A stretch of DNA of 64,000 nucleotides from Rhodothermaceae bacterium (GTDB lineage: Bacteria > Bacteroidota > Rhodothermia > Rhodothermales > Bin80), in assembly GCA_009838195.1 (NCBI GenBank), contig VXSC01000047.1:1-64000 (forward strand), written 5' to 3'. The translations under genes and the position numbers were made by a program. Under the pieces are notes generated by a model. The model was not told the origin of the DNA. It saw nothing but the letters and a program-made list of their open reading frames with translations, and ran no database searches. Positions 7,291 to 30,387 of this stretch are shown here, in pieces (the stretch's first letter is position 1; each line of letters opens with the position of its first letter).

Positions 7291-7299
7291 GATATTTCG

Positions 7300-12522: not shown

Positions 12523-12688
12523 ATAAACAGACAATTGAAATTATCCTTATTTCATGGAACAATTACATGATTATTGGGTACTTGGCTTTGGGTACATAAA
12601 CTTATTATTTATAACGAGGGACAGCCCGCTACCGAGGCTCAAGTGAGCCATGTTTTAGCAATATAGAAGTTAAAAAGTAGAGATTCTT

Positions 12689-13693
12689 ATGGGACATTTA
12701 GAGCGTACAAAAATCTATCATAGCATTGAAAAAGACCGGAAAACCAAGGTATTGTCATTTATAACAAGCGACCGCCAAGGTATGGAGACTCAGATTGCTC
12801 CAGATTGTATAGATCCATTCGTTGATCTCCTCGAAAAGATAGGACCTACTGATCGTATATCCTTGATTCTTCATACCAATGGAGGACATACACTTGTGGC
12901 ATGGCGTCTGGTGAACCTTGTACGTATGTTTTGCGAAGAGCTTGAAGTCCTAATCCCATTAAAAGCCCTTAGTGCTGGCACACTTATTTCTATCGGTGCG
13001 GACCGGGTGGTCATGACAAAGCAGGCAGCCTTGGGCCCTATTGATCCAAGCGTAAACAATGCTCTTAACCCACAGGCAGTTATCAATGGCCAACCCAAAC
13101 AAGTACCAGTCAGCGTGGAAAGCGTTCGAGGCTATCTTGATGCCGCCCGCGACGAATTAAAAATCAAAGGAGAGCAGTCACTTACTTCGGTTCTCCTAGA
13201 TTTGACGAGTCATATTCACCCTTTGGTTCTCGGCGAAATATTTAGATCACAAGCACAAATTCGATTCTTAGCCGAGAAATTGCTGTCACGGCAAATCGGT
13301 GATCAGAATAAAATAAAATCGATCATTGATTTTCTTTGTGCCGATTCGGGGAGTCACGACTATACGATTAATCGACGAGAAGCTGCCGAGCTGGGACTAA
13401 ACATTGAGAAGCCGTCTGATACACTTTACAGGCAATTGAGAGAAATTCACTTGGACTACAATAAGGAACTTAAACTGCTTGAACCTTACAACGCACAAGC
13501 TCTTATAGCTGGTGTCAAACCGAATCACCCTACCCCGTATACTATTCCCCGCGCATTAGTGGAAGGAACAGTTGGTGATTGCTATGGTTTTGTATCGGAG
13601 GGGACCCTTATGCGTGTCCAAGTGCAAACGAACAGCGGATTACACGAGGGGGTTAAAGACGAACGAACGTTTGAAGGCTGGAGGAAATTGTAA
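12689..13693 (+). CDS. ClpP/crotonase-fold serine protease, SDH_sah (serine dehydrogenase proteinase) family
   Basis: The 334-residue soluble protein has the fold signatures of the SDH_sah family (PF01972-like): LILHTNGGHTLVAWRL (about residues 59-74), then PLKALSAGTLIS with the likely nucleophile S95, then the family-specific LGPIDPS (115-121). The catalytic acid or base is not obvious by eye. There is no signal peptide, so it should act in the cytoplasm. Base composition is AT-richer than the flanking conjugation genes, which suggests recent cargo. The next gene starts on its stop codon. Similar proteases are scattered on mobile DNA, and their substrates are mostly unknown. A defence or stress role is only an inference. 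Confidence 0.75.
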   Translation: MGHLERTKIYHSIEKDRKTKVLSFITSDRQGMETQIAPDCIDPFVDLLEKIGPTDRISLILHTNGGHTLVAWRLVNLVRMFCEELEVLIPLKALSAGTLISIGADRVVMTKQAALGPIDPSVNNALNPQAVINGQPKQVPVSVESVRGYLDAARDELKIKGEQSLTSVLLDLTSHIHPLVLGEIFRSQAQIRFLAEKLLSRQIGDQNKIKSIIDFLCADSGSHDYTINRREAAELGLNIEKPSDTLYRQLREIHLDYNKELKLLEPYNAQALIAGVKPNHPTPYTIPRALVEGTVGDCYGFVSEGTLMRVQVQTNSGLHEGVKDERTFEGWRKL

Positions 13694-13968
13694 TGACTTT
13701 CAATAGCAATAATGCTGATGCCAGCTTCTATTACCATGAAGATGCAGCAGCAGACATCGCCCGGATGGATTCATCGGCAATGTATGGCAACCTTGCTGAT
13801 GCAATGAAGAACGCTACGGTGTTATTTCCATCTCCTCAGATTATTCGGACAATTATGGTAAGCCCGCCCTCCCCCATGGATGGACAAGTAGATCCTGATC
13901 CTGCAAAGGGTCGTAGCGACGGGGAAACAAAAACTCCTGGCAATAAAAAATTGATCGCAGAGGGATGA
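13693..13968 (+). CDS. Small unknown protein coupled to the SDH_sah protease
   Basis: This 91-residue protein has an acidic N-terminal half with a predicted helix (EDAAADIARMDSSAMYGNLA) and a Pro/Asp/Lys-rich, probably disordered tail. Its ATG overlaps the protease stop codon (taatg), so translation is coupled and the two are likely partners, for example substrate adaptor and protease or inhibitor and protease. I do not recognise the family. The gene ends 5 bases before the convergent trbB stop. Confidence 0.55.
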   Translation: MTFNSNNADASFYYHEDAAADIARMDSSAMYGNLADAMKNATVLFPSPQIIRTIMVSPPSPMDGQVDPDPAKGRSDGETKTPGNKKLIAEG

Positions 13969-13973
13969 TGTGT

Positions 13974-14921
13974 TCAACCCATCTGCTGAACAGTAAATCC
14001 GCTTGAGGTCCGGCCTGTGACCTTTACGATCTGACGAACACGACGCGCCTTTCCAAAGCCAGAAATCACGACGACAATATTCACTGCACGAAGTACGAGA
14101 TGCCTCTGATCAATGCCGCGTGCCCCCTCACGAGCAAGATCACTTAAGCGCTCCAAAGCCTTATCGGCATCTTCGCCGTGAATTGTAGCACATCCGCCAG
14201 GATGACCAGTGATCCATGCATCCAATAGGTCTTTCGCTGATCTATCGCGTACTTCACCAACAATAATCCGATTGGGGGTGACACGCAGACTGAATTTTAC
14301 CAGCTCCGTCATCCCAATCTGGGGCGTGGTCTGGAGTTGGAGTGAGTCAGTTGCCTGAACAGCGAGCTCAGATGTATCCTCAAGAATGACCAGTCGCTCC
14401 TCCGGGAAAGCATCAACAATGGCCTTCAAGATCGCATTGCAGAGTGTAGTTTTTCCGCTGCCGGTGGGACCGGCAATTAAAATGTTCTGGCGGGATTCGA
14501 TGGCAGATATTAATACTGAATACTCATTTGGCGTTAGCATTGCACTCTTTACATAGTCGTGCAGTGTAGGAATTTGTCGGCATGGTTTCCGGATATTGAA
14601 GGCGGGGCCCGAGGTCAGCGGGGGGATAAATCCCTGGATCCTGCATTTCCCAAGATCGGTTTGCGAGACCGCGGCTGCTAAAGAAGGGTAATCACGATCA
14701 AAACGATTTAAAGTGATTGTGGAAATAGCGCGAAGGAAAGCCTCCGCGCTCTGGGGCAGTAGTGTTACAGAGGTAGCAATTCTTTGCCCGGAAGACATGA
14801 TTGCGCGCACCAGCAGATCTGGATTGATGTAGACCTCTTCAATATTTGGGTCTTGGAGAAGTTTAAGGACCTGAGCACCGAGGTACTGACGGATCAAAGC
14901 ACTAAGGCGTTCTGAATCCAT
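13974..14921 (-). CDS. trbB: Conjugation ATPase TrbB/VirB11
   Basis: The 315-residue hexameric ATPase drives pilus biogenesis and substrate transfer. Visible motifs are Walker A GPTGSGKTT (residues 151-159), the Asp box LVILEDTSEL (about 177-186), Walker B RIIVGEVRD (218-226) and the His box GHPGGCATIHGE (239-250). All key residues are present. In RP4 trbB lies at the head of the trb operon; here it is split off on the opposite strand, downstream of a TraF-type peptidase that it overlaps by 20 bases. Confidence 0.9.
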   Translation of the reverse strand: MDSERLSALIRQYLGAQVLKLLQDPNIEEVYINPDLLVRAIMSSGQRIATSVTLLPQSAEAFLRAISTITLNRFDRDYPSLAAAVSQTDLGKCRIQGFIPPLTSGPAFNIRKPCRQIPTLHDYVKSAMLTPNEYSVLISAIESRQNILIAGPTGSGKTTLCNAILKAIVDAFPEERLVILEDTSELAVQATDSLQLQTTPQIGMTELVKFSLRVTPNRIIVGEVRDRSAKDLLDAWITGHPGGCATIHGEDADKALERLSDLAREGARGIDQRHLVLRAVNIVVVISGFGKARRVRQIVKVTGRTSSGFTVQQMG

Positions 14922-15468
14922 GACCGGTCAAAACATAGTGCGGTGGAGACCCGCAGGGAACAGGGCCATAATATCTGCTGTCATAACTGAGCACACTGTG
15001 TGTGCTGAGCAGAAAGCATGTACCGGGGGACAGCACATGGATTCCTATGGCATTTGGCAGTCGCCTTCCTCTTCGGTCGTGTTGGTAAATGGGGATTTCA
15101 AAACCCCGATACCCCTTTACTTGGATATACCGGTCAGAAACCACCACGGTATCTCCCTGCAAGGCAATGACTGGCTTTCCGATTCGAGTCGAGCCACCAG
15201 GACAAGTGCCCTGGCGCAGGTATCCGCGCTGAACGGCAAATTGACTCAGCGTGTCGGGAAGACATGTACGGAGTACATCGCCACGTTCAAGACTTGCTAC
15301 TTTCGTTATACGGTACAAGCCAAAGGGCAATGAAGCCGATGTATTAACAAAAAGAGGCAAGCTCATCCTGCCGATAGGTAAGGATTGAATCGCAACCACA
15401 ATCAGGAAAAAACCACAGATTGCGAGAACACCTATAAACTGGAGCGTGGGCAGAATGCGGCACCGCAT
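14902..15468 (-). CDS. traF: TraF-type S26 serine peptidase, conjugative pilin maturation
   Basis: The 188-residue protein has one N-terminal membrane helix (about residues 11-30) and the TraF/S26 signal-peptidase core. The serine motif is NTSASLPFGLY with S46 before L-P, and the lysine motif is IGKPVIALQGDTV with K98. The 52-residue spacing equals that of RP4 TraF (Ser37 and Lys89 as I recall). In RP4, TraF trims and cyclises the TrbC pilin. Here it is cotranscribed with trbB and follows the response-regulator gene with no gap. It could be a general signal peptidase, but the GLY after the Pro and the context favour TraF. Confidence 0.8.
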   Translation of the reverse strand: MRCRILPTLQFIGVLAICGFFLIVVAIQSLPIGRMSLPLFVNTSASLPFGLYRITKVASLERGDVLRTCLPDTLSQFAVQRGYLRQGTCPGGSTRIGKPVIALQGDTVVVSDRYIQVKGYRGFEIPIYQHDRRGRRLPNAIGIHVLSPGTCFLLSTHSVLSYDSRYYGPVPCGSPPHYVLTGHGFRTP

Positions 15469-16194
15469 TCAATCCACAATCTTAAAATCTCCAAGTCGAT
15501 ATCCAACCCCCTGTACCTTGAGGATATGCCTGGGCTCAAGAGGATTTTCGTCCAGTTTGCATCGGAGCGCATACGCATGACGATCAATGGTCCGCGTCTG
15601 CAGGTCATGTGGGACCTTCAGGACCCAAACGTTGAATTCGGCTCTTGAAACCGCACGCCCGTTCCGAAATGCCAAGTGACGCAGAACTTTCCACTCCATC
15701 GGTGTCAAATGCACGGGCTGGCCATCTTTTTGCGCGGTACGGGTCTCAAAATTGCAGAGGGTACCGCCCACCTGGACCCGCCCGGGTTGATTTCCGCCGT
15801 AGCGCACACGCCGACAAATCGCTTTCGCCCGGGTCATTAACTCATGCGCATTAAAGGGTTTCCCCATGTAGTCATCTGCACCTGCTTCCAGGCCGCGTAC
15901 GCGGTCCCCCACGGAATCGCTCCCTGAAACCATAATGACAGGGGTGTGACAGCCAAACTTCCGTACTCGCCGTACGAGTGTGATGCCATCCATACCCGGC
16001 ATGGTTACATCCAGAATGGCCACATCAAGGGAGTCTTCGGATTGTATGAAGGTTGCGGCATCGTAACCATTGGCTGTGATGGTGACTTGTGCTCCTTCCT
16101 TCTCAAAGACCCGCTTGATTGCTCTGGCAGTCGCGTCATCGTCTTCAGCGATCAACACTTTGGAAAACGGCTCTGGGGCTGCTGTATAGATCAT
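15469..16194 (-). CDS. OmpR-family response regulator
   Basis: The 241-residue protein has an N-terminal receiver domain (acidic pair EDDD at 17-20, phospho-acceptor D62 in ILDVTMPGMDG, K112 in GKPFN) and a C-terminal winged-helix DNA-binding domain ending in KVQGVGYRLG. It should bind DNA when phosphorylated by the kinase encoded just upstream. Its stop abuts the traF start and its start overlaps the kinase stop, so the kinase, regulator, traF and trbB form one operon. That makes regulation of conjugation the likely role; the target promoter was not identified. Confidence 0.88.
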   Translation of the reverse strand: MIYTAAPEPFSKVLIAEDDDATARAIKRVFEKEGAQVTITANGYDAATFIQSEDSLDVAILDVTMPGMDGITLVRRVRKFGCHTPVIMVSGSDSVGDRVRGLEAGADDYMGKPFNAHELMTRAKAICRRVRYGGNQPGRVQVGGTLCNFETRTAQKDGQPVHLTPMEWKVLRHLAFRNGRAVSRAEFNVWVLKVPHDLQTRTIDRHAYALRCKLDENPLEPRHILKVQGVGYRLGDFKIVD

Positions 16195-16847
16195 TTTGAG
16201 TCAAAAAAGATGTTTTGTGGAAGAATGATGCGGATGACCGTTCCAACCCCCACCGTACTGGCCACTTCAATCCGTCCACCATGTGCATGAACAATTTCCT
16301 GGGCAATCGAGAGCCCCATACCATTGCCGGGGACGGTGGAATCTCCTCGAAAATGAGGCTTGAAAATATGGGGCAGATATTTTGACGGGATCCCATATCC
16401 ACGGTCTCGCACTCTGAGTTGCATTCCACTGGATTGCAGCTCTGCAGCGATCACAATTTGGGTAGGTTCGCTATAGTTGACTGCGTTATCAAGCAGATTA
16501 GTGAGTACGCGTCCCAGGGCAGGCCCATCTCCCCAAATGGAAGGCAACTCTGTTTTTGCGTGCAACCGAAATGTATAACCTGGATGCAGCTCCTGGTATA
16601 TGGATGCTGTGTCTCTGAGTAAGGCTACGATATCTACTTCACTGCACCTTTCGGAAGCTGCATGATTTTCGAGCACACTACGTGCAATTTGAACGAGACG
16701 ATCAATTTGATCTGCGATGACCGCGTGACAGGCGTGACGTTCAGGGTCATCTGGTTTCATCATGCGCAATCGGTCATTATAGAGTGCGATCGCGTTCAGA
16801 GGGGTTTTCATATCGTGAGACAAGCTTGCAAGGCGTAGTTGGGTCAT
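16191..16847 (-). CDS. Histidine kinase without sensor or membrane domain
   Basis: At 218 residues this is only the catalytic core. The HisKA H box has H11 (SLSHDMKTP), the N box has N121 (NLLDNAVNY), the G1 box is DRGYGIP and the G2 box is GNGMGLSIA. An in-frame stop lies four codons upstream of the ATG, so there is no hidden sensor domain in the same frame. It must be cytoplasmic and may take its signal from a partner protein. The ATGA overlap with the regulator gene shows tight coupling. The absence of input domains is unusual and may reflect truncation or a dedicated partner. Confidence 0.85.
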   Translation of the reverse strand: MTQLRLASLSHDMKTPLNAIALYNDRLRMMKPDDPERHACHAVIADQIDRLVQIARSVLENHAASERCSEVDIVALLRDTASIYQELHPGYTFRLHAKTELPSIWGDGPALGRVLTNLLDNAVNYSEPTQIVIAAELQSSGMQLRVRDRGYGIPSKYLPHIFKPHFRGDSTVPGNGMGLSIAQEIVHAHGGRIEVASTVGVGTVIRIILPQNIFFDSK

Positions 16848-18986: not shown

Positions 18987-19487
18987 ATGAAGTATTTCTA
19001 TTGTGGAGCGGGCACTTTGGTGGTGGCACTGGTGCTGGTGTTTTGGAGGCCAACAGACAGGCCCACACCCGGGGAGCTCTACCTTCGTGCGGCGCATGAT
19101 TCGTCCGTCGTCGCACGGGCCATTGTGAGCGATAGTGCGGCGAGCCCCCTCGCAAAACAGCTCGTGACCGACCTGCTGACCCGTGAAATCCTCGTACGCA
19201 TCGAAAAGACGGGGCGCTGCGGAGCGGTCATGGATCACTACGACGCTCTGAACCTCCGCCTACAGGCAACTAAGGATCTCCTCGAACAGGCATTCCTCGC
19301 CGCACGGCCCGTACAGCTCTACGAGGATGATCAGCTACGCTGCTTTGCTTATTCGATCACCTACCACATCCCACTCCCCCAGCCGATGAACTGGCGGAAT
19401 CATCTGCTGACAAAAGTCCCTCTGCAACTGACCCTCATTCATCCGATGGACGATTTCAAACACTTCAAACCAGAGTCAAATGATTAA
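18987..19487 (+). CDS. Unknown exported or membrane-anchored protein, first gene of the pilus operon
   Basis: The 166-residue protein has an N-terminal hydrophobic anchor (about residues 6-20) and a helical body with two Cys residues (positions about 78 and 118). I recognise no domain. It overlaps the next gene by 8 bases and so belongs to the same operon as the pilins, chaperone and usher. The small anchored domain could be a periplasmic assembly factor. This role is inferred from position only. Confidence 0.55.
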   Translation: MKYFYCGAGTLVVALVLVFWRPTDRPTPGELYLRAAHDSSVVARAIVSDSAASPLAKQLVTDLLTREILVRIEKTGRCGAVMDHYDALNLRLQATKDLLEQAFLAARPVQLYEDDQLRCFAYSITYHIPLPQPMNWRNHLLTKVPLQLTLIHPMDDFKHFKPESND

Positions 19488-20148
19488 AGTACTCGCAACC
19501 ACTCTCCTTGTATGCGGCACTGTGCAAGCTTCGAACGCGCAGCAGTTTGATCAACTTACACGCCCGGTCGCCACGCTGACCGATAGTACTCAGATCTGGG
19601 CGATGCTAGATGCGCTCCTGATTCCGGCAATCGGACACGTCCATCAGGCGGATGTCGTGGATGTGACCGCCAATGGGTTCGGCCCCAATGACCTGGTGAT
19701 CCTCTACCCCTCCATGGAGACCTATGAGATCGGTAGTGATGTGCCTCACCTGTTGCAAACGTCCATGAAATCATGGGAGATCGCCGCCGATTACCGGCTT
19801 GATGCCACACGTCAGGAAGCACTGCGCATCCCCTTAGATGCCCATCTGCGTCAGGATGCACGCGCAGCACTCACTGGAGATGTACTCAGTATGGTAGCCC
19901 ACTATTATGAAGGAGATGCGTTTGATTTGCGCATGTCGCAGGATCCCCACGGCGTACGCTTGGAAATCTGGAATTATGACCCAGAAGCCCTGCGCTATCG
20001 ACAGCCGTCCATCCCAGTGAGTCAGGACACGCTCTGGCAGACATTCCGATTCGCGGCACCGGCGGTCGTGATGGCCTTCAAGGATGCGACAGGCTGCATT
20101 GAGACCTACGCCGAAGAGGGCCAGGTCCGTACGCGTCCATGCGAATGA
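19480..20148 (+). CDS. Unknown secreted protein of the pilus operon
   Basis: This 222-residue protein has a signal peptide cleaved near ASNAQQ and a soluble mixed alpha/beta body with two C-terminal Cys residues (near CIETY and at RPCE). It does not look like a pilin: there is no DUF4402-type strand pattern. It overlaps both neighbours by a few bases. Possible roles are tip adhesin, minor subunit or periplasmic regulator; none is supported by a recognisable motif. Confidence 0.55.
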   Translation: MIKVLATTLLVCGTVQASNAQQFDQLTRPVATLTDSTQIWAMLDALLIPAIGHVHQADVVDVTANGFGPNDLVILYPSMETYEIGSDVPHLLQTSMKSWEIAADYRLDATRQEALRIPLDAHLRQDARAALTGDVLSMVAHYYEGDAFDLRMSQDPHGVRLEIWNYDPEALRYRQPSIPVSQDTLWQTFRFAAPAVVMAFKDATGCIETYAEEGQVRTRPCE

Positions 20149-20630
20149 ATACCATCCTTTTTGTGATCCTGATAGCATCCCCTACCTATGCACAGGCCGT
20201 GGATACCGAGGTGCGACTCGAACTCCGCGTTCCGCAGGCCACCTGTGCACTGGTGATTCAGGAGCATGTGGACTTTGGCCCAGTCACGGGGCAGCAAGAG
20301 GTGCTTCGCCTGTCCCCATCGTCTAACAGATACCAGACGCCGGGTCGATTCACTCTCTCGGGGCAATATGCCTGGGAGTACATGGTCAGTATTGATTTTC
20401 CAAGCCAGATCACCGGCCCGGGAACTCCTCTGGCCTATGAAGGGCAATGGGAGCAGGCAATCGCGGCTACCGGGTCATTCAAGATGATTCCAGGATTGGC
20501 ATTCCATCAATCTGCAGAAGAGCCCTTCGAACGACATTTTCGTGTCGGAGGCCGGATCCGGGGACTCTCCACGAACACACCACCCGGCTTGTATAGCGGA
20601 CAAATTTCAATCACCGTGACCTGTAACTAA
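20139..20630 (+). CDS. DUF4402-like fimbrial subunit 1
   Basis: The 163-residue secreted protein has a signal peptide (to about SPTYA) and a beta-sandwich pattern: an early Cys in TCALVIQEHVDFGPVT, middle strands and a closing YSGQISITVTCN. The early and final Cys could form the conserved disulfide. The V-x-FG-x-V pattern after the first Cys and the final strand match DUF4402/spore-coat-U-type pilins, which chaperone-usher systems assemble. It is the first of three consecutive pilin-like genes. The ATG at 20139 overlaps the previous gene; an alternative ATG lies six bases later. Confidence 0.6.
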   Translation: MRMNTILFVILIASPTYAQAVDTEVRLELRVPQATCALVIQEHVDFGPVTGQQEVLRLSPSSNRYQTPGRFTLSGQYAWEYMVSIDFPSQITGPGTPLAYEGQWEQAIAATGSFKMIPGLAFHQSAEEPFERHFRVGGRIRGLSTNTPPGLYSGQISITVTCN

Positions 20631-20632
20631 TA

Positions 20633-21178
20633 ATGAGATCCATCATCACATTCCTTGTTCTGAACCTCTGGTGGGCCGTTCCCATGTTCGGGCAATCCAC
20701 TACGGTAACGGCATCCATCTCCCTTTCCACTCCCTCGCCGTCATGCACGATCTCTGGGGTCTCCAATCTTAATTATGGCACCGTAGAGAAGCCGGGCAGC
20801 GGTACCGGCTTGATCGTCATAAATGCCCAGACGGGTGCAAGAACCAGCAGCACTTTATCCGTCAGCGGCTCCAGCAGTGTGGGGCAGGCACGCTTGAGCG
20901 GATCCAATGTAGCCAGCTACAGCGTAGCGCGGACATTCCCGTCCACGCTGACCAATTCCAGCAGCAGCTTAACCTACGCGGGTACATGGGCGCAATCCTC
21001 AAACTCAAGCAGCAATTATAGCGCCGTCAGTGGCACCTCGTACAGCGGAACCTCCGGCGGCCCGGGGGCGACATTTACCCATTTTTTCAGGTTTGGCGGC
21101 ACCGTCGGTGACATCACACTCAGTAAGGCGAACGGGACCTATACCGGCACAATCTCACTGGCCGCAACCTGCAATTGA
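20633..21178 (+). CDS. DUF4402-like fimbrial subunit 2, Ser/Gly/Thr-rich
   Basis: The 181-residue secreted protein has a signal peptide (to about PMFGQ) and the same frame as its neighbours: CTISGVSNLNYGTVEKPGSG at the start, FFRFGGTV near the end and a last strand YTGTISLAATCN. It is strikingly rich in Ser, Thr and Gly, as expected for a major shaft subunit with few charged side chains. Two Cys residues sit at the ends of the domain. It is probably the main pilin. The gap to the previous stop is only 2 bases. Confidence 0.65.
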   Translation: MRSIITFLVLNLWWAVPMFGQSTTVTASISLSTPSPSCTISGVSNLNYGTVEKPGSGTGLIVINAQTGARTSSTLSVSGSSSVGQARLSGSNVASYSVARTFPSTLTNSSSSLTYAGTWAQSSNSSSNYSAVSGTSYSGTSGGPGATFTHFFRFGGTVGDITLSKANGTYTGTISLAATCN

Positions 21179-21180
21179 AC

Positions 21181-21699
21181 ATGAAGCGATACCTCCTTTT
21201 GGGACTAACCGTCTTTTCCGGAGCCGCTCAGGCGCAGACGAGCGGCACGATGCAGGTGCAACTGGAGGTACTTCCAAGAGTGCTGACCGTGAGTGTCAGT
21301 AGCAGCCACCTGGACTTCGCACAGCAGCGCGCAGATGCAGGGGCAGTTACCCTGGACCCGGCAACCGGGCTTGCCAGCCATAAGGCGGGCGGCCCCCATG
21401 CGATGGGGGAAGTGATCGTGCAGGGCCCGGCCGGGGCTGGGTTCCTAGTGAGTATTGATTCCCCGGTCACACTCCAACAGACCGGAACCCGCAACGAGGT
21501 CCGCTTTACCTCATCCTGGGCCCAAAGCAGAGGCTGCAACCAAGGAGCATTCATGCTCATCCCCACGAGACAGACCGCTACAGGAGTGCTTGGCAAGGAC
21601 GGATGCGCAGCCCTCCGCTTTGGCGGGACAGTCCACCTCCTGGGAACTGCTCAGGGCCGCTATGCGGGGCACCTCGCAGTCCGAATTACCCCTCTATAG
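21181..21699 (+). CDS. DUF4402-like fimbrial subunit 3
   Basis: The 172-residue secreted protein has a signal peptide ending SGAAQAQ and the pilin pattern: VSSSHLDFAQQRADAG early, ATGLASH in the middle, LRFGGTVHL late and a final strand YAGHLAVRITPL. Unlike its two paralogues it has no terminal Cys, and its two Cys residues are internal. That may mark a specialised base or tip subunit. The ATG at 21181 follows the previous stop by 2 bases; a TTG overlapping that stop is less likely. Confidence 0.6.
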   Translation: MKRYLLLGLTVFSGAAQAQTSGTMQVQLEVLPRVLTVSVSSSHLDFAQQRADAGAVTLDPATGLASHKAGGPHAMGEVIVQGPAGAGFLVSIDSPVTLQQTGTRNEVRFTSSWAQSRGCNQGAFMLIPTRQTATGVLGKDGCAALRFGGTVHLLGTAQGRYAGHLAVRITPL

Positions 21700-21702
21700 A
21701 AA

Positions 21703-22476
21703 ATGATGCGGCTACTCCCCTCTTTGCTGATCGTATGCACATGGCCATTGTGTCAGGTGCATGCCCAGGCCGCACTCAGCGTGACGCCTGCCTATGCCGT
21801 AGTGACCAATGAGCAGCCCTACGGAGCGTTCGTATTGTACAACCAGGGAACGGAAGGAGTAGAAATCACCATCAGCGCCCATTACGGGGTGATTGCTTCC
21901 ACGGACTCCACCACTGCAGTGATGCTGGAAGAGGCCGGAGAGCTGGGAGATCTATCCCGACATCTGACCTTTTTCCCGGACCGGTGCATCCTGCCAGCGG
22001 GCGGGGAGCAGACAGTACGCTATCGCATTCAGGAAGCCCCTGAGGGGGCGCATATTGCACTCATGCACTTCGCGATGCAAGAGCGGGGTGCCATTGTGGA
22101 CGGACAGATCCCCTCTGTGGCCAGTGGACTCAGTATTGTGTACAACCTGGTTGCGCCCTTGATCTATCTCCAGGGCAGAGGCGTGCCGGTTCTGTCTGCC
22201 CGCTTCCTGAAGAGTACATCAGACGAATTGTACCTGTACCTGGAGAATCACAGCCGGTGGCCCTTTATGGGAGGAGTGCGTGTGATCCAGAAGGGTCGGC
22301 AACTTGGCAGAGCCGAGTCCGCCGTCTATACAGCGCGTCTGATACGCATCCCGGTGGCTGAGCTCCCTGAGCAAGGTCCGCTGCATTTGCAATTCGACGG
22401 GGACTATACCGGGTTGTCCCGGGCAACCAAGCGTCACCTGATTGTCCCGGGTCCCATCGATCTGGACTGGTATTGA
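21703..22476 (+). CDS. PapD-like periplasmic pilus chaperone
   Basis: The 257-residue protein has a signal peptide (to about VHAQA) and two Ig-like domains. The first opens LSVTPAYAVVTNEQPYGAF and ends with TFFPDRCILPAGGEQTVRYR, the strand before the hinge where PapD-type chaperones bear their hydrophobic donor residues and conserved basic residue. The second domain is shorter and ends PIDLDWY. Such chaperones fold pilin subunits by donor-strand complementation and deliver them to the usher. Its stop overlaps the usher start, and the three subunit genes precede it. The family is clear by layout but divergent. Confidence 0.7.
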   Translation: MMRLLPSLLIVCTWPLCQVHAQAALSVTPAYAVVTNEQPYGAFVLYNQGTEGVEITISAHYGVIASTDSTTAVMLEEAGELGDLSRHLTFFPDRCILPAGGEQTVRYRIQEAPEGAHIALMHFAMQERGAIVDGQIPSVASGLSIVYNLVAPLIYLQGRGVPVLSARFLKSTSDELYLYLENHSRWPFMGGVRVIQKGRQLGRAESAVYTARLIRIPVAELPEQGPLHLQFDGDYTGLSRATKRHLIVPGPIDLDWY

Positions 22477-24725
22477 TGCGGCAATGGATGCTCTGGGCCA
22501 TGCTGGCGTTCGCCATTTTGCGCACGGCAACCGCACAGGTGCTGATGGAAGTGCCTCTTCTGTTGGAACTGCCCGGCAACGAGCGGTTGATCCGGGCATG
22601 GTATGACGGAGAGGAGTTTCTCGTGGAGGGCAGCGAGCTCTTTCCGGCTCTGGGGTTCACCGTGCAGCGTACAGAAGCAGGACTGGAAGCATTGGATGCG
22701 CTACATCGCTACGCGTTTTCGTGCTCCCCTTCACCCGGCCCATCGTGCAAGATTCTCATGGATGATGTGCTGGACCGTCTTGGCAGTGCGTTGCACTTTG
22801 ATCAAAACCGCCTGCATTTGACTGCATCCTCAGTCGCGACTGCGTTTGATGTACGTTCGCTGCGAACGCGTCAACGCAGCTGGGCCGAGGCCCCAGGACC
22901 TCACTTGTTTGGTCGAACACGCAGCGTGTGGGGCGGGATGATGGTCAATTGGCAGCTACGCCGGGATGCATTTGGAATTCATCCCTCCCTCCGACTCACC
23001 GGCAGTGTTTTGCATGGGAGCATCGAAGCAGATCTGAATCGGGGTCATTCATGGGTCTACCGGTATGACTGGCCAGAGCGAACGTGGTTGACCCAGATCG
23101 AAATGGGACGTGATGCAAATGGATTCGTCGGAGTCTCCATCACGAATATGCCATTGGCAAGGCAGCGCTTACACCGCGTACAGAATCTTCGCGGGCAGTC
23201 TGCCCCGCATGCACTCGTCCAGGCGGTCGTCAGCGGCGAGGTGGTGGATCAGGTACAAGCGGATGCCGAAGGACACTATGAACTGAGCACCCCCGCATGG
23301 TACGGAACCACAAAACTGGAAGTACGCACCCAGCCGCTCGGAGGACGGCGTATGCAATCGGATCATCACTATCTCTTCACACCAACCTCTCTTGTGCCAC
23401 CCGGCAAAGTATTCTATCAACTGCGTGCCAGTGAGGAACACTCTGCCCTGGATCTACAGTATGGCGTACACCCGAGACTGACACTCCAGAGTGCACTGGC
23501 GCTGCATGGCAGACACCCAGAGGCATCTATCGGCTTCACGATGAATCCGATCACGTTCCTGGTGGCTGATACCAAAGTGCAGATCCCATCTGCACACTGG
23601 CTGACCACGCTCCAACTGTGGCGCTCAGGGGGCCAGGTCATGGTTCATCTTGATGGCTGGCGGCGTCAACTCCAGAACCTGCATGTGAACGCATCAGCCA
23701 GTAAAGGCCCGGTCAGTGTACTGCTCCGAGGCACACGATCATCCTTTTTGGCATCCTTCTCCGAATGGGGGCAGCGTCTATCGTTGCACCCCGAAGTCTG
23801 GCTTCATGCCTATAGCGGACTGCTCATGCAAGCCAGCTGGGATGTTGACCGGCTGCACCATGTGGAAAAAGAAACGCATCACCGCTGGCGCTTTGCCACA
23901 GGCTGGGCATTCCCACAGCTTCGAATCATGGGATTTGCGACACAGGACTATATCCAAAAAGCCTATGGCGTGGAGGGAATTCTGACCCTTGGGGGGCCAT
24001 CCCTGGAATTTCGTGTGGGATGGGATGCCGATCATCAAACGGTAGTCGGTAGTCTCAGTCTCCAGATCTCATCACCGTTTGGGAGCCTGTTTGCCCGGGG
24101 GCGTCGGGATACGCACGGAATCTCTAATTCGCAGCAGATTCAGGGGAGCGTGCATCTCTGGGAAACGGTGAGGCTTGCCCCATACGGTCATCAGCAAAGT
24201 GCCACAGAACTTCGAATCTTTGAAGACATCAACGGGAACGGCTTACAGGACCCCGCCGAGCCGATCCTGTCCCATATTGATGCAGAGCTCTATCAGGGCG
24301 GATGGTCACGCCTTCGAACAGGCGCGCTGTATGTGGCTTATCTGGAGCCCTATCAGCGCTACCAAGTCCGCATCCTGGAGGCATCCATTCGGGATCCGGC
24401 CCTTCACCCTGCCACGGGATTGGAGTTCAGCTTTACGGCGGATCCGGGGCGGAGCAAGATCATCCACGTCCCGATGCAGCGACTGATCCCGGTAGTGGGA
24501 AAGATCACCGGACTAGATCGAACACCGCTCAGACTCAAAATCTTTCTGAACCAGTCAGAAGTGACGGATGTGTATCGAGATGGCGGGTTTGCTTTGCATT
24601 TACGCCCTGGACACTACACCCTCACCGTCGTGGATATCCTAGACCAAGACCCGCTCGCCGAAAAAATGATCGAAGTTGGCATCGACCCACTTCATGTTGT
24701 AATTGATCTGGAAAAAATCCCATAG
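22476..24725 (+). CDS. Divergent usher-like outer-membrane protein
   Basis: The 749-residue protein has a signal peptide (to about ATAQ), an N-terminal domain with two Cys residues (near FSCSPSPG and SCKIL), a segment RVQNLRGQSAPHALVQAVVSG plus EGHYELSTPAWYGTTKLEVR that resembles the plug and adjacent strands of ushers, and a long run of alternating amphipathic strands (about residues 310-570). Then comes an EDINGNGLQDPAEPIL loop of the calcium-binding DxNGNGxxD type and two small beta domains. Ushers form the outer-membrane pore that polymerises pilins. Length is close to the usher family. The assignment rests on pattern and position, not on high identity. Confidence 0.6.
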   Translation: MRQWMLWAMLAFAILRTATAQVLMEVPLLLELPGNERLIRAWYDGEEFLVEGSELFPALGFTVQRTEAGLEALDALHRYAFSCSPSPGPSCKILMDDVLDRLGSALHFDQNRLHLTASSVATAFDVRSLRTRQRSWAEAPGPHLFGRTRSVWGGMMVNWQLRRDAFGIHPSLRLTGSVLHGSIEADLNRGHSWVYRYDWPERTWLTQIEMGRDANGFVGVSITNMPLARQRLHRVQNLRGQSAPHALVQAVVSGEVVDQVQADAEGHYELSTPAWYGTTKLEVRTQPLGGRRMQSDHHYLFTPTSLVPPGKVFYQLRASEEHSALDLQYGVHPRLTLQSALALHGRHPEASIGFTMNPITFLVADTKVQIPSAHWLTTLQLWRSGGQVMVHLDGWRRQLQNLHVNASASKGPVSVLLRGTRSSFLASFSEWGQRLSLHPEVWLHAYSGLLMQASWDVDRLHHVEKETHHRWRFATGWAFPQLRIMGFATQDYIQKAYGVEGILTLGGPSLEFRVGWDADHQTVVGSLSLQISSPFGSLFARGRRDTHGISNSQQIQGSVHLWETVRLAPYGHQQSATELRIFEDINGNGLQDPAEPILSHIDAELYQGGWSRLRTGALYVAYLEPYQRYQVRILEASIRDPALHPATGLEFSFTADPGRSKIIHVPMQRLIPVVGKITGLDRTPLRLKIFLNQSEVTDVYRDGGFALHLRPGHYTLTVVDILDQDPLAEKMIEVGIDPLHVVIDLEKIP

Positions 24726-24793
24726 CGATGCGACCAGCATTTGGCAGCCATTACGCGACATTTTCATGTAACATAATTCATCAACCAAAACTC

Positions 24794-25447
24794 ATGACAG
24801 AAACTTTGCAGGATTCAACGCTTCTTTCACAGGAGATACAGACCTTTTCGATTCTTGAGCTATTCAGCCAGGCGGGGGGCTTCCAGTGGCCAATTTTGGC
24901 CGTATTGACCGCCGGACTAATCGTGCTAATGCTTCGGGTTGTACGTCTTGTTCGGGATCATTTGGCTGCGCGTCCACTCATGCAGTTACGTCTGGATTCC
25001 ATCTCTTACACTGCACTGGCAAATGCGCAGCGTAGCGCCGCGGACAGCCTCTATACCCGACTTCTTTCAGGAATGCTGCAACTGCATCGCAATCCCGAAG
25101 CCATGGGGCGGGAAGTCAGCGATGTAGCGACTGCAGCACATACTGCATATCAACGGACACAACGGATCATCAACTACTGCTCCAGCACCGCCGGTGGACT
25201 CGGCCTACTGGGTACGCTGGTTGGGATTTATGCGCTCTTCTCTGCGGGCACACGCGATCCCCAAACCATCTTTGCAGGAATCGCCATCGCGGTTGTCTCT
25301 ACGCTTCTGGGCATTGTGACCAGCATCCTGCTGGAATTCTTTGAGACACTGATGCACGGCCATGTGAGCCGCTATATCGAATCTGCTCAGGTATGGGCAC
25401 AAAAAGTGCGCAGTCGTGTGCTTTTTCTTTCCGAGGAAGATGTATGA
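24794..25447 (+). CDS. MotA/TolQ/ExbB-type proton channel protein
   Basis: The 217-residue inner-membrane protein has three membrane segments: about residues 30-50 (WPILAVLTAGLIVLML), about 135-155 (GGLGLLGTLVGIYALF) and about 165-190 (IFAGIAIAVVSTLLGI). The GLLGTLVG and FAGIAIAVVSTLLGI strings are the ExbB/TolQ core. Such proteins form a pentamer that conducts protons and powers a partner ExbD pair. ATG at 24794 gives the usual length; a farther ATG at 24728 would add an odd leader. The stop overlaps the next start (ATGA). Confidence 0.85.
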   Translation: MTETLQDSTLLSQEIQTFSILELFSQAGGFQWPILAVLTAGLIVLMLRVVRLVRDHLAARPLMQLRLDSISYTALANAQRSAADSLYTRLLSGMLQLHRNPEAMGREVSDVATAAHTAYQRTQRIINYCSSTAGGLGLLGTLVGIYALFSAGTRDPQTIFAGIAIAVVSTLLGIVTSILLEFFETLMHGHVSRYIESAQVWAQKVRSRVLFLSEEDV

Positions 25448-25812
25448 ACGGGTCCCTGATTGTGCGACTGGTAGATATCACGCTTCTATTACTACTGAGT
25501 CTGATGGCTGCTGCCAGCTTTACGACAACAGGGCTTGATCCCCCGTTCACCAATGAACTTGAAGAGGACGGGGTGCTCCTGGCGCCAATGCAGATCGGTA
25601 TTGCACCAGACGGCAGCATCCATACCCAGGACGGAGCATCCATCACCCTGAAAGAGCTCGAGAGTCTTCTGGACCAGTGGCCTGCTGAGGTGGAATTCAT
25701 CGCAGATGCACGGGCACCCGCGGTCAGATTGCTCGCGGTACACGCCGCCGCAAGACATTTTAATCGTCAGGCCGCATTCAGAGTGCGGCAAAGGCAGGGA
25801 GGTGCACCATGA
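25444..25812 (+). CDS. ExbD/TolR-like motor protein 1
   Basis: The 122-residue protein has one N-terminal membrane helix with the conserved proton-carrying Asp (VRLVDITLLLLLSLM, D11) and a small periplasmic domain (residues about 35-122). This is the ExbD/TolR layout. The end is basic and lacks the long C-terminal part of typical ExbD. It is coupled by ATGA overlaps to both the ExbB-like gene and a second ExbD-like gene. The cluster order ExbB-ExbD-ExbD recalls the AglRQS and Tol motors. Confidence 0.75.
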   Translation: MNGSLIVRLVDITLLLLLSLMAAASFTTTGLDPPFTNELEEDGVLLAPMQIGIAPDGSIHTQDGASITLKELESLLDQWPAEVEFIADARAPAVRLLAVHAAARHFNRQAAFRVRQRQGGAP

Positions 25813-26186
25813 AACGGAGCAGTGGACATTTTCTTCGATTCATAGACCTAGGTCTATTGCTGTTGCTTGCGTTTTTATCCGTCGCAGAGCTGAACCCCAC
25901 GCTACAGGTCCCCCTTCCCGGAAAACCCGGAAGCCCTCAGGAGGTGGTAACTGCCCGTGTGGTATTTAATCAGGATTGGGAGGGAATGCTAACGCGCCTG
26001 GATCGATCAGCAATACTTTGCAAGACAGCAAGTATCGTGGAGCTTGCCACGTGCATGGAACAGCACGCAGCCATGCGATACTTGCTTGCCCCCGTGGAAA
26101 CAGCGACCGTGCAGCAGGTGGTAACCCTGCTGGATCATTGCAGAAGAGCTGCACATCCGTGCGAGATTGAACCATTACAACCATGA
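25809..26186 (+). CDS. ExbD/TolR-like motor protein 2
   Basis: This 125-residue protein again has one N-terminal helix with an Asp (LRFIDLGLLLLLAFL, D13) and a short periplasmic domain with three Cys residues (near ILCKT, ATCME and HCRRA plus HPCE). It is only weakly similar to its neighbour outside the helix. Two distinct ExbD-like proteins suggest a heterodimer inside the ExbB-type pentamer. Both junctions are ATGA overlaps. Confidence 0.7.
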   Translation: MKRSSGHFLRFIDLGLLLLLAFLSVAELNPTLQVPLPGKPGSPQEVVTARVVFNQDWEGMLTRLDRSAILCKTASIVELATCMEQHAAMRYLLAPVETATVQQVVTLLDHCRRAAHPCEIEPLQP

Positions 26187-27109
26187 AAATCAAAACACAG
26201 GAACGACTGCTTGCGTGCGGCATGACAGCCGCCCTCCTCTTTATACTGGGATTGATTGCCACTTGGGTGGAGCTGCGAAGTCAGCCGCCAAAACTGCAAC
26301 AGCTGTCACTGACAGAGAGCTTTGCATCTGTAACCCGCCTCCCTTCATCTGCCCCACCAAGCGTGACCAAACCGGCGACACCCGCTCTCCGAAGGCGGAC
26401 TCCCCGAATACTAGAGTCCATCCAGTCGGAGCGATCGGTTTCTGCTCCAACCCAGCGCGTACTCCCGACTACTTTGCAACTGCAACAGAAAGAAATCCTA
26501 TTAGAATCTGCACACAGAAACATCGATGGGACATCGGTGGCTGTGACTGCAAGGGTTTCACACATCTCTTCGGCACTAATTCCATCGCAACGTGCCGGAA
26601 TACAACAGAGCCTGCGCCAGGCACCTCGTGCAGCAACCGAGGTGACCGGAAGATCAGATCCTCCAAGTATATCTCTGGGAATCGAACGTCCCTTACATGC
26701 AAACCGCGTCCTGAAAACTGAAGAAGCAAAAAAGATCATCCGGTGGATCCGGGTTACGGAATCGGATCTCCCTCCTGGAATCAAGCGCCATGTGGGGTAT
26801 CACCCAGGGAATCTGAGTGCAACCGCTCTCCTGGAATATGAGGGCGAACCCTGGGAAATTTATCTGATGGCTCGTATGCCATCGGAAGAGTTGCATGTTG
26901 TGATCGTTCGAGGCCATGCAACCTACTATGTTGTGGATCCGAGTTTTAAGCGTGATGGGCGGCGGTTTCGGGTGGGTGTAGCCCGCCGGAGTGGTGGCCA
27001 GATCACCGGAATCACCTCGGAGGAGCGCGCGGCCTCCAGTAGCGAAGCGACAGCTCATTACGATGTATTTCTCGCGTGGTGGGACAAGTTGCGACTGACA
27101 TTGCAATGA
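26183..27109 (+). CDS. TonB-architecture periplasmic energy transducer
   Basis: The 308-residue protein has one N-terminal membrane helix (about residues 11-30), a Pro/Ser/Thr-rich spacer (about 45-160) and a compact C-terminal domain (about 185-305) with strands such as SATALLEYEGEPWEIYLM and ATYYVVDPSF. This is the layout of TonB and TolA, but the C-terminal domain shows no TonB YP motif. Adjacent ExbB and ExbD genes make it the likely transducer of motor energy to the outer membrane. Another possibility is a structural clamp. Confidence 0.6.
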   Translation: MKIKTQERLLACGMTAALLFILGLIATWVELRSQPPKLQQLSLTESFASVTRLPSSAPPSVTKPATPALRRRTPRILESIQSERSVSAPTQRVLPTTLQLQQKEILLESAHRNIDGTSVAVTARVSHISSALIPSQRAGIQQSLRQAPRAATEVTGRSDPPSISLGIERPLHANRVLKTEEAKKIIRWIRVTESDLPPGIKRHVGYHPGNLSATALLEYEGEPWEIYLMARMPSEELHVVIVRGHATYYVVDPSFKRDGRRFRVGVARRSGGQITGITSEERAASSSEATAHYDVFLAWWDKLRLTLQ

Positions 27110-28485
27110 GAATTTTCTCCTTTACGCTAGTGCTCCTTGTCGCTGGCTGCAGTGTGCCACCAAGGATTGTGGAGCCTCCTAAACCTGCCAGTCCCATGCT
27201 ACCCGGGGTAGACAGTACGCAGATTCAGATGGCTTGGCAGCTCGCCGAAGCGTCTTTTGCACGCGATGCCGAAGCAGCCGCACGTGCGGCGGAGGAAGGT
27301 AGGAAGCTGGCCGCTCTTGCGGACAGCCTCCTACCACCAGCACTTGCGTCACAGGTTCGGGATACGGCCAGAGCACTGGTTTTATTTCACGCGGGGGTGG
27401 ATCTACTCGAGCAATACTCCGAGACCGACAGCTTACAGGCACTGGAACTACTCAAAAATGCTGCAGCGAAGTTTGAAGAAGCACTTGAAGCAGACGCATT
27501 CGATGACGAGGCAAGGCAGTGGCTGGCTCGTGTGTACCAAACTTTGGCGGAGCGATTCCAGCAGACTGGCGCAATCCAGGAGCAACTTCGCGTATTGCAA
27601 CGTCTGGTTATGTTGAATCAGGACCGGCATGATTACATCGCACTTTTAGCAGCGGCACAGGAAGAGATACCGACTGAAGCATCGGGGATGACTGCTGGAG
27701 CCTTATGGGAGCGTGCTGCACAGGTTGCCCTGGACGATGCGGAGATGGGGCTAAGGGCGGCCCCGGATTCGGCGGCTCTGTTTGCGTACCATGTGCGTGC
27801 TAGCCGGGCGTTTGTAGTAGCCAACCGTAGTTTTCTTGCACGTGCATCATTAAGCAGTGCACAGGTTTGGCAGCGCACTGAACAAGAGCGTGCACTCATT
27901 CATGCGGACAGCATCTGGTTGGCCTGGGATGATGGAAATCTGACTGCTCGCAAACGCTTTGATGTTCTCCTCAGCGAAGTTTCTGTGAATCCAGAAAAAG
28001 CAGCCGACGGTTTGCTGGATTTGCTTGAGGGTGTTCAGAATCCAGATGCTCGGATACAAGTACGCCACCAGTTGGCACTGGCTAGATATGCCTCCGGTTC
28101 AGAGGAGCAGTCAGTCCGTTTGATGCAAGCGTTGGTGAGAGAAGATCCACACCAGAAAAAACTCGCAGAGGATTATGCGGTCATGACATACAATCTTGCT
28201 CAGCAACTACGCCGTGGGGGAGACCTGCGGGGCGCCCTCGCCTATTTATTGCAGTGCGCATCTCTGGATGCACAGATCGCGGCCAGAGCTGCATTTGATG
28301 CAGCGCTTCTTCTGAGAAACAACCTGGATGCGGCCATCCGGTATGCGCACATGGCGGAAGCGCGCATAGATACACTTGACCAGGATGAACGAAATGCGTT
28401 ATTCCGGTATCTGGCGGAGTTGTACCGAAGGAATGGGGATCGCCACCGAGCTAGGGAATACATCGGATATTTGGCTGGCGGCTAG
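27106..28485 (+). CDS. TPR-rich lipoprotein, last gene of the pilus-motor operon
   Basis: The 459-residue lipoprotein has a lipobox (LVAGC, C15), a Pro-rich linker and a helical solenoid with repeated Ala/Leu-rich helices spaced about 34 residues apart across the body (for example near ALELLKNAAAKFEEAL, EQSVRLMQALVREDP and LRGALAYLLQCASLD), a TPR-type layout. It probably acts as a scaffold at the outer or inner membrane. The start ATG overlaps the previous stop; an upstream GTG would place the lipobox too far in. It resembles TPR lipoproteins in gliding and Tol-like complexes. Confidence 0.7.
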   Translation: MRIFSFTLVLLVAGCSVPPRIVEPPKPASPMLPGVDSTQIQMAWQLAEASFARDAEAAARAAEEGRKLAALADSLLPPALASQVRDTARALVLFHAGVDLLEQYSETDSLQALELLKNAAAKFEEALEADAFDDEARQWLARVYQTLAERFQQTGAIQEQLRVLQRLVMLNQDRHDYIALLAAAQEEIPTEASGMTAGALWERAAQVALDDAEMGLRAAPDSAALFAYHVRASRAFVVANRSFLARASLSSAQVWQRTEQERALIHADSIWLAWDDGNLTARKRFDVLLSEVSVNPEKAADGLLDLLEGVQNPDARIQVRHQLALARYASGSEEQSVRLMQALVREDPHQKKLAEDYAVMTYNLAQQLRRGGDLRGALAYLLQCASLDAQIAARAAFDAALLLRNNLDAAIRYAHMAEARIDTLDQDERNALFRYLAELYRRNGDRHRAREYIGYLAGG

Positions 28486-28490: not shown

Positions 28491-28727
28491 TTGACAGAGC
28501 CAATACCCGGTTACCGCTCGTTTGGTGAGATTGGTAAAGAGGTGCACGTTGTGGCCGAACTGCGCGCGCCAGGGGGCATAAACATCAGCATCATCGGTGA
28601 TCACAAGGGAATGCTGATCATAGCGCATGGGAGAGGGATCACCAAATATGGCTTCCCCCAAGATGACCTTACCGATATTACTCTTACTGGAAGATCGGAA
28701 ATGGTCCGCCAGAAGTCACTTTCCTAA
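28491..28727 (+). CDS. Small unknown protein with a second, decayed copy downstream
   Basis: This 78-residue protein starts with TTG 5 bases after the TPR gene and ends 12 bases inside the convergent porin gene. It contains GITKYGFPQDDLTDITLTG. The remnant near 29569-29664 encodes a similar tail (GITKYGFPKDGHVDFTITG). Differences between the copies mostly preserve the reading frame, which supports coding. I do not recognise the family. Confidence 0.5.
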   Translation: MTEPIPGYRSFGEIGKEVHVVAELRAPGGINISIIGDHKGMLIIAHGRGITKYGFPQDDLTDITLTGRSEMVRQKSLS

Positions 28728-29423
28728 CGGTAAGCTCACGCCAGCTGTGATCGCAAACCCCCGGTTTTTCGATTCAATACCCGTCGTAGTATCAATCATT
28801 CCTAGATCATAAACCGCATCGAGAGACACTGAGAATTCACTGGATACGGGTATATTCACGCCTACTCCAGTCATGATGGATATATCTACAGTCTCTATCT
28901 CTGTGCCACCATCTGTACAATCAGAAGAGTAACGCTCAGCCACAAATCCATGAAGCTCAGTCTCAAGTTCTAAACTACAACCCAAAGCAAAAGAGAGTAC
29001 GGGGCCAGCCAAGACGTGTATAACGTTACTGGATGTAGGGTAAAACTGCAATAGAGCGGGGATCGAAAGGTAGTCTACTCTAGACCTGATATATATACCG
29101 TCAGGGGAATTTTCAGGAAGTAGCGTTTCCGCACTTCGTACTATATCCACCGAGTATCCCCTTTGCATCCAGCCGAGTCCCAACTGTGCCCCCATTCTGT
29201 CTGAGATCGGCAAAGAAATGGATACTCGTGTGTTAAATCCACCTCTGTAACTTGGATTATATGAAGGATCTACGCGATCCGTGGTGATCTTTGATAAACT
29301 AAGTCCCACCTGGATTGACACAGATTTGGTGAGGTAACCTGTTTGAGCATGTGTGGCAACCGAAACCACTGAGAACAGCACGAGAACAATGAAAAATTTG
29401 GTTTTCGCGAGCATGTTTTTCAT
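28716..29423 (-). CDS. PorT-type outer-membrane beta-barrel protein 1
   Basis: The 235-residue protein has a signal peptide (to ATHAQ) and an eight-strand-type barrel with alternating strands: SVSIQVGLSLSKI, RGGFNTRVSISLPI, MGAQLGLGWMQRGYSV, VSLDAVYDLGM and the terminal FAITAGVSLPLGK. Surface loops carry two Cys residues. Such barrels are small outer-membrane proteins with OmpA-like or PorT-like fold and varied roles. The start was set at 29423 by matching the paralogue 29653-30387; an upstream ATG at 29483 adds an unrelated leader. Confidence 0.75.
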   Translation of the reverse strand: MKNMLAKTKFFIVLVLFSVVSVATHAQTGYLTKSVSIQVGLSLSKITTDRVDPSYNPSYRGGFNTRVSISLPISDRMGAQLGLGWMQRGYSVDIVRSAETLLPENSPDGIYIRSRVDYLSIPALLQFYPTSSNVIHVLAGPVLSFALGCSLELETELHGFVAERYSSDCTDGGTEIETVDISIMTGVGVNIPVSSEFSVSLDAVYDLGMIDTTTGIESKNRGFAITAGVSLPLGK

Positions 29424-29568
29424 CCTAGAAAGGTTTGTTGGGAGTGCTCCAGGGAGTGTTTGAAGAAGCTGGGTCTTCCGCAAGAACCATTTGTTCGGCG
29501 GGCATCCCGGAGCTTAGACATCAACACCATCGCTGATTGCATGCGAGTACCGATCATATGAAGAGCGA

Positions 29569-29664
29569 AGAGGGATCACCAAATATGGCTTCCCCAAAGA
29601 TGGTCATGTGGATTTTACTATTACTGGAAAACGAAGTATGATCCACCAGAGATTACCTTCCTAA
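29569..29664 (+). pseudogene. Remnant of the small gene duplicated with the porin
   Basis: This stretch encodes the same tail as the 28491-28727 gene in one frame up to a stop at 29662-29664, which overlaps the convergent porin stop just as in the first copy. The upstream part of the gene is missing or too diverged to read. It marks the left edge of the tandem duplication. Confidence 0.45.
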
Positions 29665-30387
29665 TGGAAAACTCACGCCAGCTGTAATCGCAAACCCTCG
29701 GTTTTTTGAATCATCACCCTCCTTGTCGTAATTCCTCATTCCTAAGTCATAAACCGCATCAAGAGATACGGAGAATGCACTGGATACGGGTATATCCACG
29801 CCTGCTCCAGCCCTGATGGATACATCTACTGTCTCCAGCTCTATATCATCACCACAATCAACAGACTCACGCTCCTCCTCACCATCAGCCTCAAGAATAC
29901 TCTCAAGATTACAACCTAGAGCAAAGGAGAGTACGGGGCCGGCCAGGAGACGTACCTTGGATATTGGGTTAAACTGCAAAAGAGCAGGGACTGAAAGGTA
30001 GTTAATTCTGAAATCAGTGGTACTGGAAATATCAGGAAACTCATAATCAGAGTAATATCCAGCAAAATCACCAAATAAGTCAGATAATTCAATCTCCAAA
30101 GAGAACCCCTTCTGCATCCAACCAAATCCCAACTGCGTGCCCAACCTGCCTCGAATAGGCAAATAAACTGACGCTCGTACGTTAACCCCACTTACGTAAC
30201 CTATATCAACCAAATCTTCCAAATCTTCGAACTCGTCCGGTGTGGTGACCGTTGATAAACTAAGTCCTGCTTGGATTGATACAGATTTGGTCAGATAACC
30301 TGTTTGAGCATATGTAGTGGCTAACGAAACCATGGAGAAAAGCACGAGAATCGCGAAAAATCTGATTTTCATGAGTGCGTTTTTCAT
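29653..30387 (-). CDS. PorT-type outer-membrane beta-barrel protein 2
   Basis: The 244-residue paralogue of the preceding barrel shares the signal peptide (FFAILVLFSMVS), the SVSIQAGLSLSTV first strand, the GTQLGFGWMQKGFS strand and the FAITAGVSFPLGR end. Acidic loops (DEFEDLEDLVDIG, EADGEEERESVDCG) are longer than in copy 1 and may form a different surface. Shared flanks show that the two arose by tandem duplication. Expression is probably separate, since each has its own start region. Confidence 0.75.
   Translation of the reverse strand: MKNALMKIRFFAILVLFSMVSLATTYAQTGYLTKSVSIQAGLSLSTVTTPDEFEDLEDLVDIGYVSGVNVRASVYLPIRGRLGTQLGFGWMQKGFSLEIELSDLFGDFAGYYSDYEFPDISSTTDFRINYLSVPALLQFNPISKVRLLAGPVLSFALGCNLESILEADGEEERESVDCGDDIELETVDVSIRAGAGVDIPVSSAFSVSLDAVYDLGMRNYDKEGDDSKNRGFAITAGVSFPLGR

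Follow-up and report, generated by a model that had tools for sequence, protein, structure and literature searches.

A chaperone-usher operon joined to a predicted proton motor in Rhodothermaceae suggests a powered surface fibre

Why should the genes of a chaperone-usher fibre share an operon with those of a proton motor? Such fibres are the standard example of assembly at the outer membrane without an energy source. The question is raised by a 64,000-nucleotide (nt) stretch of a Rhodothermaceae genome (assembly GCA_009838195.1, contig VXSC01000047.1, positions 1 to 64,000; hereafter the window), in which positions 18987-28485 carry 12 co-directional open reading frames (ORFs) on the plus strand, named here A-L (Table 1). 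Names, order and strand were checked in the window; a first-pass annotation had counted eleven genes, and all those that it named are present in the order and on the strand given there. From gene content, conservation and the swapping of partners we infer that the fibre is motor-energised, and the locus suggests a powered surface fibre of a kind for which we found no description.

Most junctions within A-L are overlaps of 4-10 nt or gaps of 2-3 nt, much as first described (overlaps or 2-4 bases). The junction between the usher gene G and the ExbB-like gene H departs from this pattern: judging from conservation, H starts at ATG 24794 (the relatives begin MTETLQ...), which widens the gap from 2 to about 68 nt. 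Many genomes keep gene content and order at 25-80% protein identity, which rules out a chance pattern of ORFs.

The chaperone-usher part comprises pilins, chaperone and usher. Three DUF4402-like subunits had been annotated; D lies above the Pfam cut-off and C practically at it, while E falls below it and is assigned only weakly, the E family being represented also by the pilin domain of giant proteins described below. The product of F has no match in the Pfam and NCBIfam libraries. Its family profile nevertheless aligned with nine pilus chaperones of Escherichia coli K-12 with an hhalign probability of 81.5 (E 1e-5, first domain only), compared with 0.4% for an unrelated control profile, in line with the PapD-like chaperone proposed at first. 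C, D and, weakly, E are thus predicted to be pilins, and F a PapD-like chaperone. No usher match was found for G in Pfam or NCBIfam either. The AlphaFold model of G comprises an N-terminal domain, six strands, a plug at about residues 239-300, about 16 more strands and two C-terminal domains. The top 15 Foldseek matches of this model are all FimD/PapC (E down to 5e-17), and FimD ranks first with VIA (Z 13.7, rmsd 7.8, 296 residues aligned), with other barrels close behind. By profile, G aligned with seven K-12 ushers over 528 columns (hhalign 96.1%, E 3e-9). The domain layout, the fold matches and the profile alignment identify G as a predicted usher of the FimD/PapC type and speak against an unrelated barrel. 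A sequence search of solved structures with the F, K and G profiles gave nothing useful, the matches of K being weak linker matches to sodium channels. Many relatives have, between usher and ExbB gene, a further gene of two DUF4402 domains (about 290 aa), possibly a tip adhesin; it was found neither at 24725-24794 of the window nor anywhere in the window's whole genome.

Downstream of the usher lie the components of a putative stator. H contains a MotA_ExbB domain (2e-13; 50.7 bits against a cut-off of 22.9) and three transmembrane-like segments, with Thr residues conserved in all 31 informative sequences of the alignment. The ExbD match of I (8e-4) is below the curated cut-off and J has none in the Pfam/NCBIfam scans; each has a single N-terminal transmembrane helix with an invariant Asp, residue 11 of I (28/28) and residue 13 of J (27/27), at the proton-carrying position of ExbD/TolR. 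H, I and J thus carry the hallmarks of a proton-driven ExbB-ExbD stator, as the first reading of an ExbB-like channel with two helix-Asp ExbD-like proteins supposed. J also contains four cysteines invariant in 27/27 sequences of the two usher-coupled architectures described below (types I and II), and B two (29/29); in a third architecture, type III, both sets are only partly kept. Invariant cysteines are unusual for an ExbD-like protein.

K had been called a protein of TonB architecture. Its layout of transmembrane helix, linker and C-terminal domain agrees with this, and some type III relatives have a linker conspicuously rich in proline and glutamate, as in TonB; no TonB_C match was obtained in Pfam or NCBIfam. 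K is predicted to reach from the inner membrane into the periplasm and is TonB-like only in layout. A p32/C1QBP-like fold considered for its C-terminal domain was discarded, since the match is weak (Z 6.5) and the model too poor to use (predicted local distance difference test, pLDDT, 63.5). B and K gave no matches in Pfam, NCBIfam or PHROGs scans. L conforms to the TPR lipoprotein of the first-pass annotation. Three of the four ExbB-family genes of the window's genome sit in usher clusters, which indicates that this motor is probably dedicated to them.

In outline, a stator with a TonB/TolA-like transducer and a TPR protein resembles Tol-Pal, and the motor could keep the outer membrane pulled towards the cell wall where large surface complexes sit, doing no work on the fibre. 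That anchoring matters is hinted at by a stand-alone usher whose long C-terminal extension holds a SPOR domain (L086, 6089-10735); related stand-alone ushers reach 1550 aa, hinting at cell-wall anchoring where the motor is absent. Library scans found no family match to TolB or Pal among A-L, and the presence in each genome of three dedicated copies and a fourth, separate ExbB-family gene also argues against such tethering, which we regard as improbable.

The conservation of the locus was surveyed in 59 relatives, mostly fragmented assemblies, by retrieving longer stretches around matches and then applying family hidden Markov models. A profile search of genome contigs returned nine named contigs, all from Rhodothermales, Rhodothermaceae or Bacteroidota metagenome-assembled genomes. 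Two usher-coupled architectures were distinguished. Type I has the gene order of the window. Type II has the order giant protein, B, J, K, I, L, G, H, or near variants of it; its giant proteins (L040-L057, including L045 and L046 of the window's genome) are about 700-2250 aa long and fuse a pilin domain to a chaperone domain downstream of it in the same chain; in those that were scanned, PKD-like repeats precede the pilin domain. The window's own genome contains one type I and two type II clusters.

Across the usher clade, H adjoins 31 of 33 ushers, a pattern that spans two families and no fewer than two gene orders, so motor and pilus genes do co-occur outside the window. The two remaining cases are L047, which ends at a contig edge, and L039, a true exception. 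The trees of G, H, K, L and B, rooted at midpoints and with several branches of the H tree lacking resolution, each separate type I from type II with 100/100 support, which indicates that usher and motor genes split together. The coupling of usher and motor is thus well supported by comparative sequence data as real and conserved. That motor and pilus genes are accidental neighbours in one operon, without cooperating, would be compatible with the usher cluster of L039; the recurrent adjacency and the matching split of five gene trees make it already unlikely, and we give this explanation almost no weight.

The coupling is also derived. In 20 stand-alone DUF4402 chaperone-usher clusters of the class and phylum, no adjacent H-I-J-K-L-B set was found, apart from two weak single matches, and in the usher tree the coupled ushers and 18 stand-alone ushers lie on opposite sides of a branch with 100/100 support. 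Together these observations point to a single origin of the coupling, as far as this sample shows. G014 has four nearly identical type II clusters (L053, L054, L055 and L056) on three contigs, with giant proteins that differ in length or frame; this looks like a recent amplification, perhaps for antigenic variation. In G011, a piece of a type II H gene (L147, 9124-9636) stands alone, with the rest of the cluster absent, and is likely a relic of loss.

The motor is found with partners other than ushers. Among 394 genomes of the phylum, K and B share an identical distribution, each occurring in the same 15. Five of these lack a coupled usher and show the third architecture around K; in four of the five, which no contig end interrupts, further genes stand upstream of H-I-J-K-L-B. 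Where they were scanned (L117, L118, L120 and L121), the upstream genes encode a TPR protein, a surface protein with a sorting domain of type B of the type IX secretion system (T9SS), and a PorP/SprF-like protein. At L117, H itself has a C-terminal immunoglobulin-like domain. Type-B proteins reportedly use PorP-like barrels as their anchors, as SprB does with SprF in gliding (PMC9143113). SprA is present in 8/8 genomes tried; a GldL search gave no match in the tested genomes and none in the controls either, and so carries no information. The stator here is ExbB-ExbD-ExbD with a TonB-shaped transducer, as against the GldLM of Bacteroidota T9SS and gliding.

The partners are therefore usher pili, the giant PKD-pilin-chaperone fusion, a T9SS type-B protein with a PorP/SprF-like barrel and, for H-I-J-K-L in a second lineage, a conjugative type IV secretion system (T4SS). 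This distribution indicates that the motor together with B (H-I-J-K-L-B) forms a cassette paired with differing outer-membrane-anchored surface proteins. H-I-J-K-L had been recognised as a motor set before; the membership of B and the exchange of the cassette between systems had been missed.

The main rival to a motor acting on the fibre is proton-powered export, in which K would pull on the usher plug or on a subunit, as TonB does on a transporter plug, and the usher would assemble its fibre by proton force. The plug domain in the model of G and the co-evolution of usher and motor genes are in accord with this, as is the requirement of a TonB-dependent transporter and an ExbB/ExbD/TonB partner for protein secretion reported in Myxococcus (PMC6434023). 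Related DUF4402 ushers nevertheless manage without a motor, and the cassette also stands beside the T9SS, a system with an energy source of its own, and beside a T4SS. Its common partner is an outer-membrane-anchored surface protein rather than one secretion route, which favours force on the appendage; powered export is in our opinion unlikely. The type II fusion of pilin and chaperone would be hard to polymerise, so that force transmission fits it better than secretion does; it resembles one anchored adhesin that keeps a foot in the periplasm.

We favour, as an only just probable reading of these sequences, that the locus encodes one machine, in which a chaperone-usher fibre has its own proton motor exerting force on the exported, usher-anchored appendage. 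As with other ushers, the subunits would fold on F, and donor-strand exchange would carry them out via G with no supply of energy. The H-I-J stator would use proton flow to pull or turn K, and K, together with B and L, could take hold of G from its periplasmic side or of the fibre base capped by the chaperone. Force would thus reach an appendage that is already exported and anchored in the usher. The type I fibre, located next to a VirB/VirD4 T4SS, could serve attachment or mating-pair formation in conjugation.

This T4SS was not seen in the first-pass annotation, whose union of pilus and motor is real. The genes at 1348-16847 of the window represent a near-complete VirB/VirD4 system with a relaxase, in which VirB4, VirB6, VirB8-11 and VirD4 are assigned by family match and VirB11 is on the opposite strand. 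In relatives, VirB9-VirB10-VirD4 run straight into A-B-... (G012 and G013) or into B-... (G014 and G015). A VirD4 homologue, in some cases a contig-end fragment, is present in 15 of 16 genomes of the family and in none of 13 other genomes tested; the single VirD4 match of G011 (one contig) is about 14 kb from the operon, and in G014 (four contigs) it is adjacent.

In the second T4SS lineage (G004 and G009), VirD4 and the S26 peptidase flank a homologue of A (3e-18), and motor genes of the lineage's own stand next to the relaxase, with no adjacent usher. At L172 (9185-13206), H-I-J-K-L lie downstream of the relaxase, and at L145 (1-1942) the same set is cut at K. A tyrosine-recombinase-like gene is located near the motor genes of L172 (4164-5087).

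These arrangements allow another explanation, that the motor serves the conjugative T4SS, for example in mating-pair contact or envelope opening, and that the usher fibre is a separate adhesin in a shared operon. The motor of the second lineage would agree with this, the more so as its L nests inside type I. Types II and III, though, keep the motor without this T4SS nearby, and the type II usher still co-evolves with it, which leaves this explanation distinctly unlikely, somewhat less so than the tethering considered above.

Several observations weigh against a motor acting on the usher fibre. The model of G is of modest confidence (pLDDT 64), and that of the C-terminal domain of K is poor (63.5) and has no significant fold match. 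The usher cluster of L039 (genome G004) has B and no adjacent motor. The T4SS of the window retains a VirB2-like gene, and the usher fibre is thus not obviously needed for mating; since this T4SS is missing from the neighbourhood of most type II and all type III clusters, conjugation is not a general role. A broader proposal, tentative and rather less probable than not, is that a general Rhodothermia proton-motor cassette plugs into unrelated surface systems and drives the appendage mechanically, a moving or retracting usher fibre bringing mating cells together.

The coordinates of the operon and of the T4SS genes are listed in Table 1. Directly after the operon, on the minus strand, two paralogous genes for small outer-membrane beta-barrels are arranged in tandem (28716-30387), and 39684-41069 encodes a protein with an FRG domain and TPR repeats. 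FRG domains are frequent in defence-related genes.

Table 1. Predicted genes of the usher-motor operon and the adjoining conjugative system (window positions; TM, transmembrane)
Feature	Position	Strand	Description
VirB2-like, VirB3-like, VirB4, VirB5-like, VirB6, VirB8 (T4SS left block)	1348-6821	+	VirB2 and VirB3 by position and reading only
MobC-like, relaxase (MobA/VirD2)	6940-8298	+	MobC by position only
VirB9, VirB10, VirD4	8715-12356	+	family match; continuous with the usher-motor operon in several relatives
VirB11-like ATPase, TraF-like S26 peptidase, response regulator, histidine kinase	13974-16847	-	left flank
A	18987-19487	+	166 aa, membrane-anchored; homologue between VirD4 and TraF-like genes in second T4SS lineage (hmmsearch)
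B	19480-20148	+	222 aa, exported; motor-cassette member without known family
C	20139-20630	+	predicted DUF4402-type pilin; Pfam 25.0 bits, cut-off 25.2
D	20633-21178	+	predicted DUF4402-type pilin; Pfam 29.7 bits, above cut-off
E	21175-21699	+	predicted DUF4402-type pilin, weak (below Pfam cut-off)
F	21703-22476	+	predicted PapD-like periplasmic chaperone; hhalign
G	22473-24725	+	predicted outer-membrane usher, 750 aa; AlphaFold model, Foldseek, VIA, hhalign
H	24794-25447 (ORF open from 24728)	+	ExbB/TolQ-like proton channel, three TM helices, conserved Thr
I	25444-25812	+	first ExbD/TolR-like protein, TM Asp 11
J	25809-26186	+	second ExbD-like protein, TM Asp 13
K	26183-27109	+	candidate energy transducer: TM helix, linker, conserved C-terminal domain, about residues 176-308
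L	27106-28485	+	TPR-like lipoprotein, lipobox LVAGC

The first-pass annotation knew of no described system with this composition, and searches of the open-access literature likewise turned up neither a chaperone-usher system with ExbB/ExbD nor one linked to conjugation. A conserved lineage of ushers with a dedicated proton motor would either break the rule of energy-free assembly or reveal powered usher fibres. It makes the re-purposing of stators testable and points to a possible new part of the conjugation machinery of Bacteroidota.

Among known systems, the FimCD/PapCD pili share with the locus the domain order and fold of the usher, the PapD-like chaperone and the grouping of pilin genes in one operon; by architecture, the locus is predicted to be a chaperone-usher system. 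It differs in the addition of a proton motor, a transducer, a TPR lipoprotein and B, and in an usher and chaperone too divergent for the Pfam/NCBIfam models. The left flank corresponds to VirB/VirD4 systems in VirB4, VirB5-like, VirB6, VirB8-VirB11, VirD4 and the relaxase, and by position in the VirB2/VirB3-like genes. Stator chemistry and transducer layout are those of ExbB-ExbD-TonB and Tol-Pal, while two distinct ExbD genes, the lack of TonB_C and the dedication to a surface-fibre operon set the locus apart. With the T9SS and SprB-SprF gliding machinery (PMC9143113, PMC12635249) it shares, in type III, a surface protein with a type-B C-terminal domain and a PorP/SprF-like barrel beside the cassette; the form in the window has an usher in place of SprF/T9SS.

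In the Agl-Glt/Agl-Nfs machinery of Myxococcus xanthus, one motor type drives different surface modules (PMC3169522, PMC3858216). As there, one TolQ-like and two TolR-like proteins (H, I and J, encoded adjacently) are combined with a TonB-like transducer and TPR envelope proteins; in contrast, K lacks the FHA and TonB_C domains of GltG, L does not match the GltE model, and the cargo is an usher fibre. By the tests made, the locus would thus work like Agl-Glt/Nfs and not be a member of it. The re-use of the cassette with T9SS adhesins and conjugation suggests a modular delivery of force to the cell surface, comparable to that of Agl-Glt/Nfs and built from different parts.

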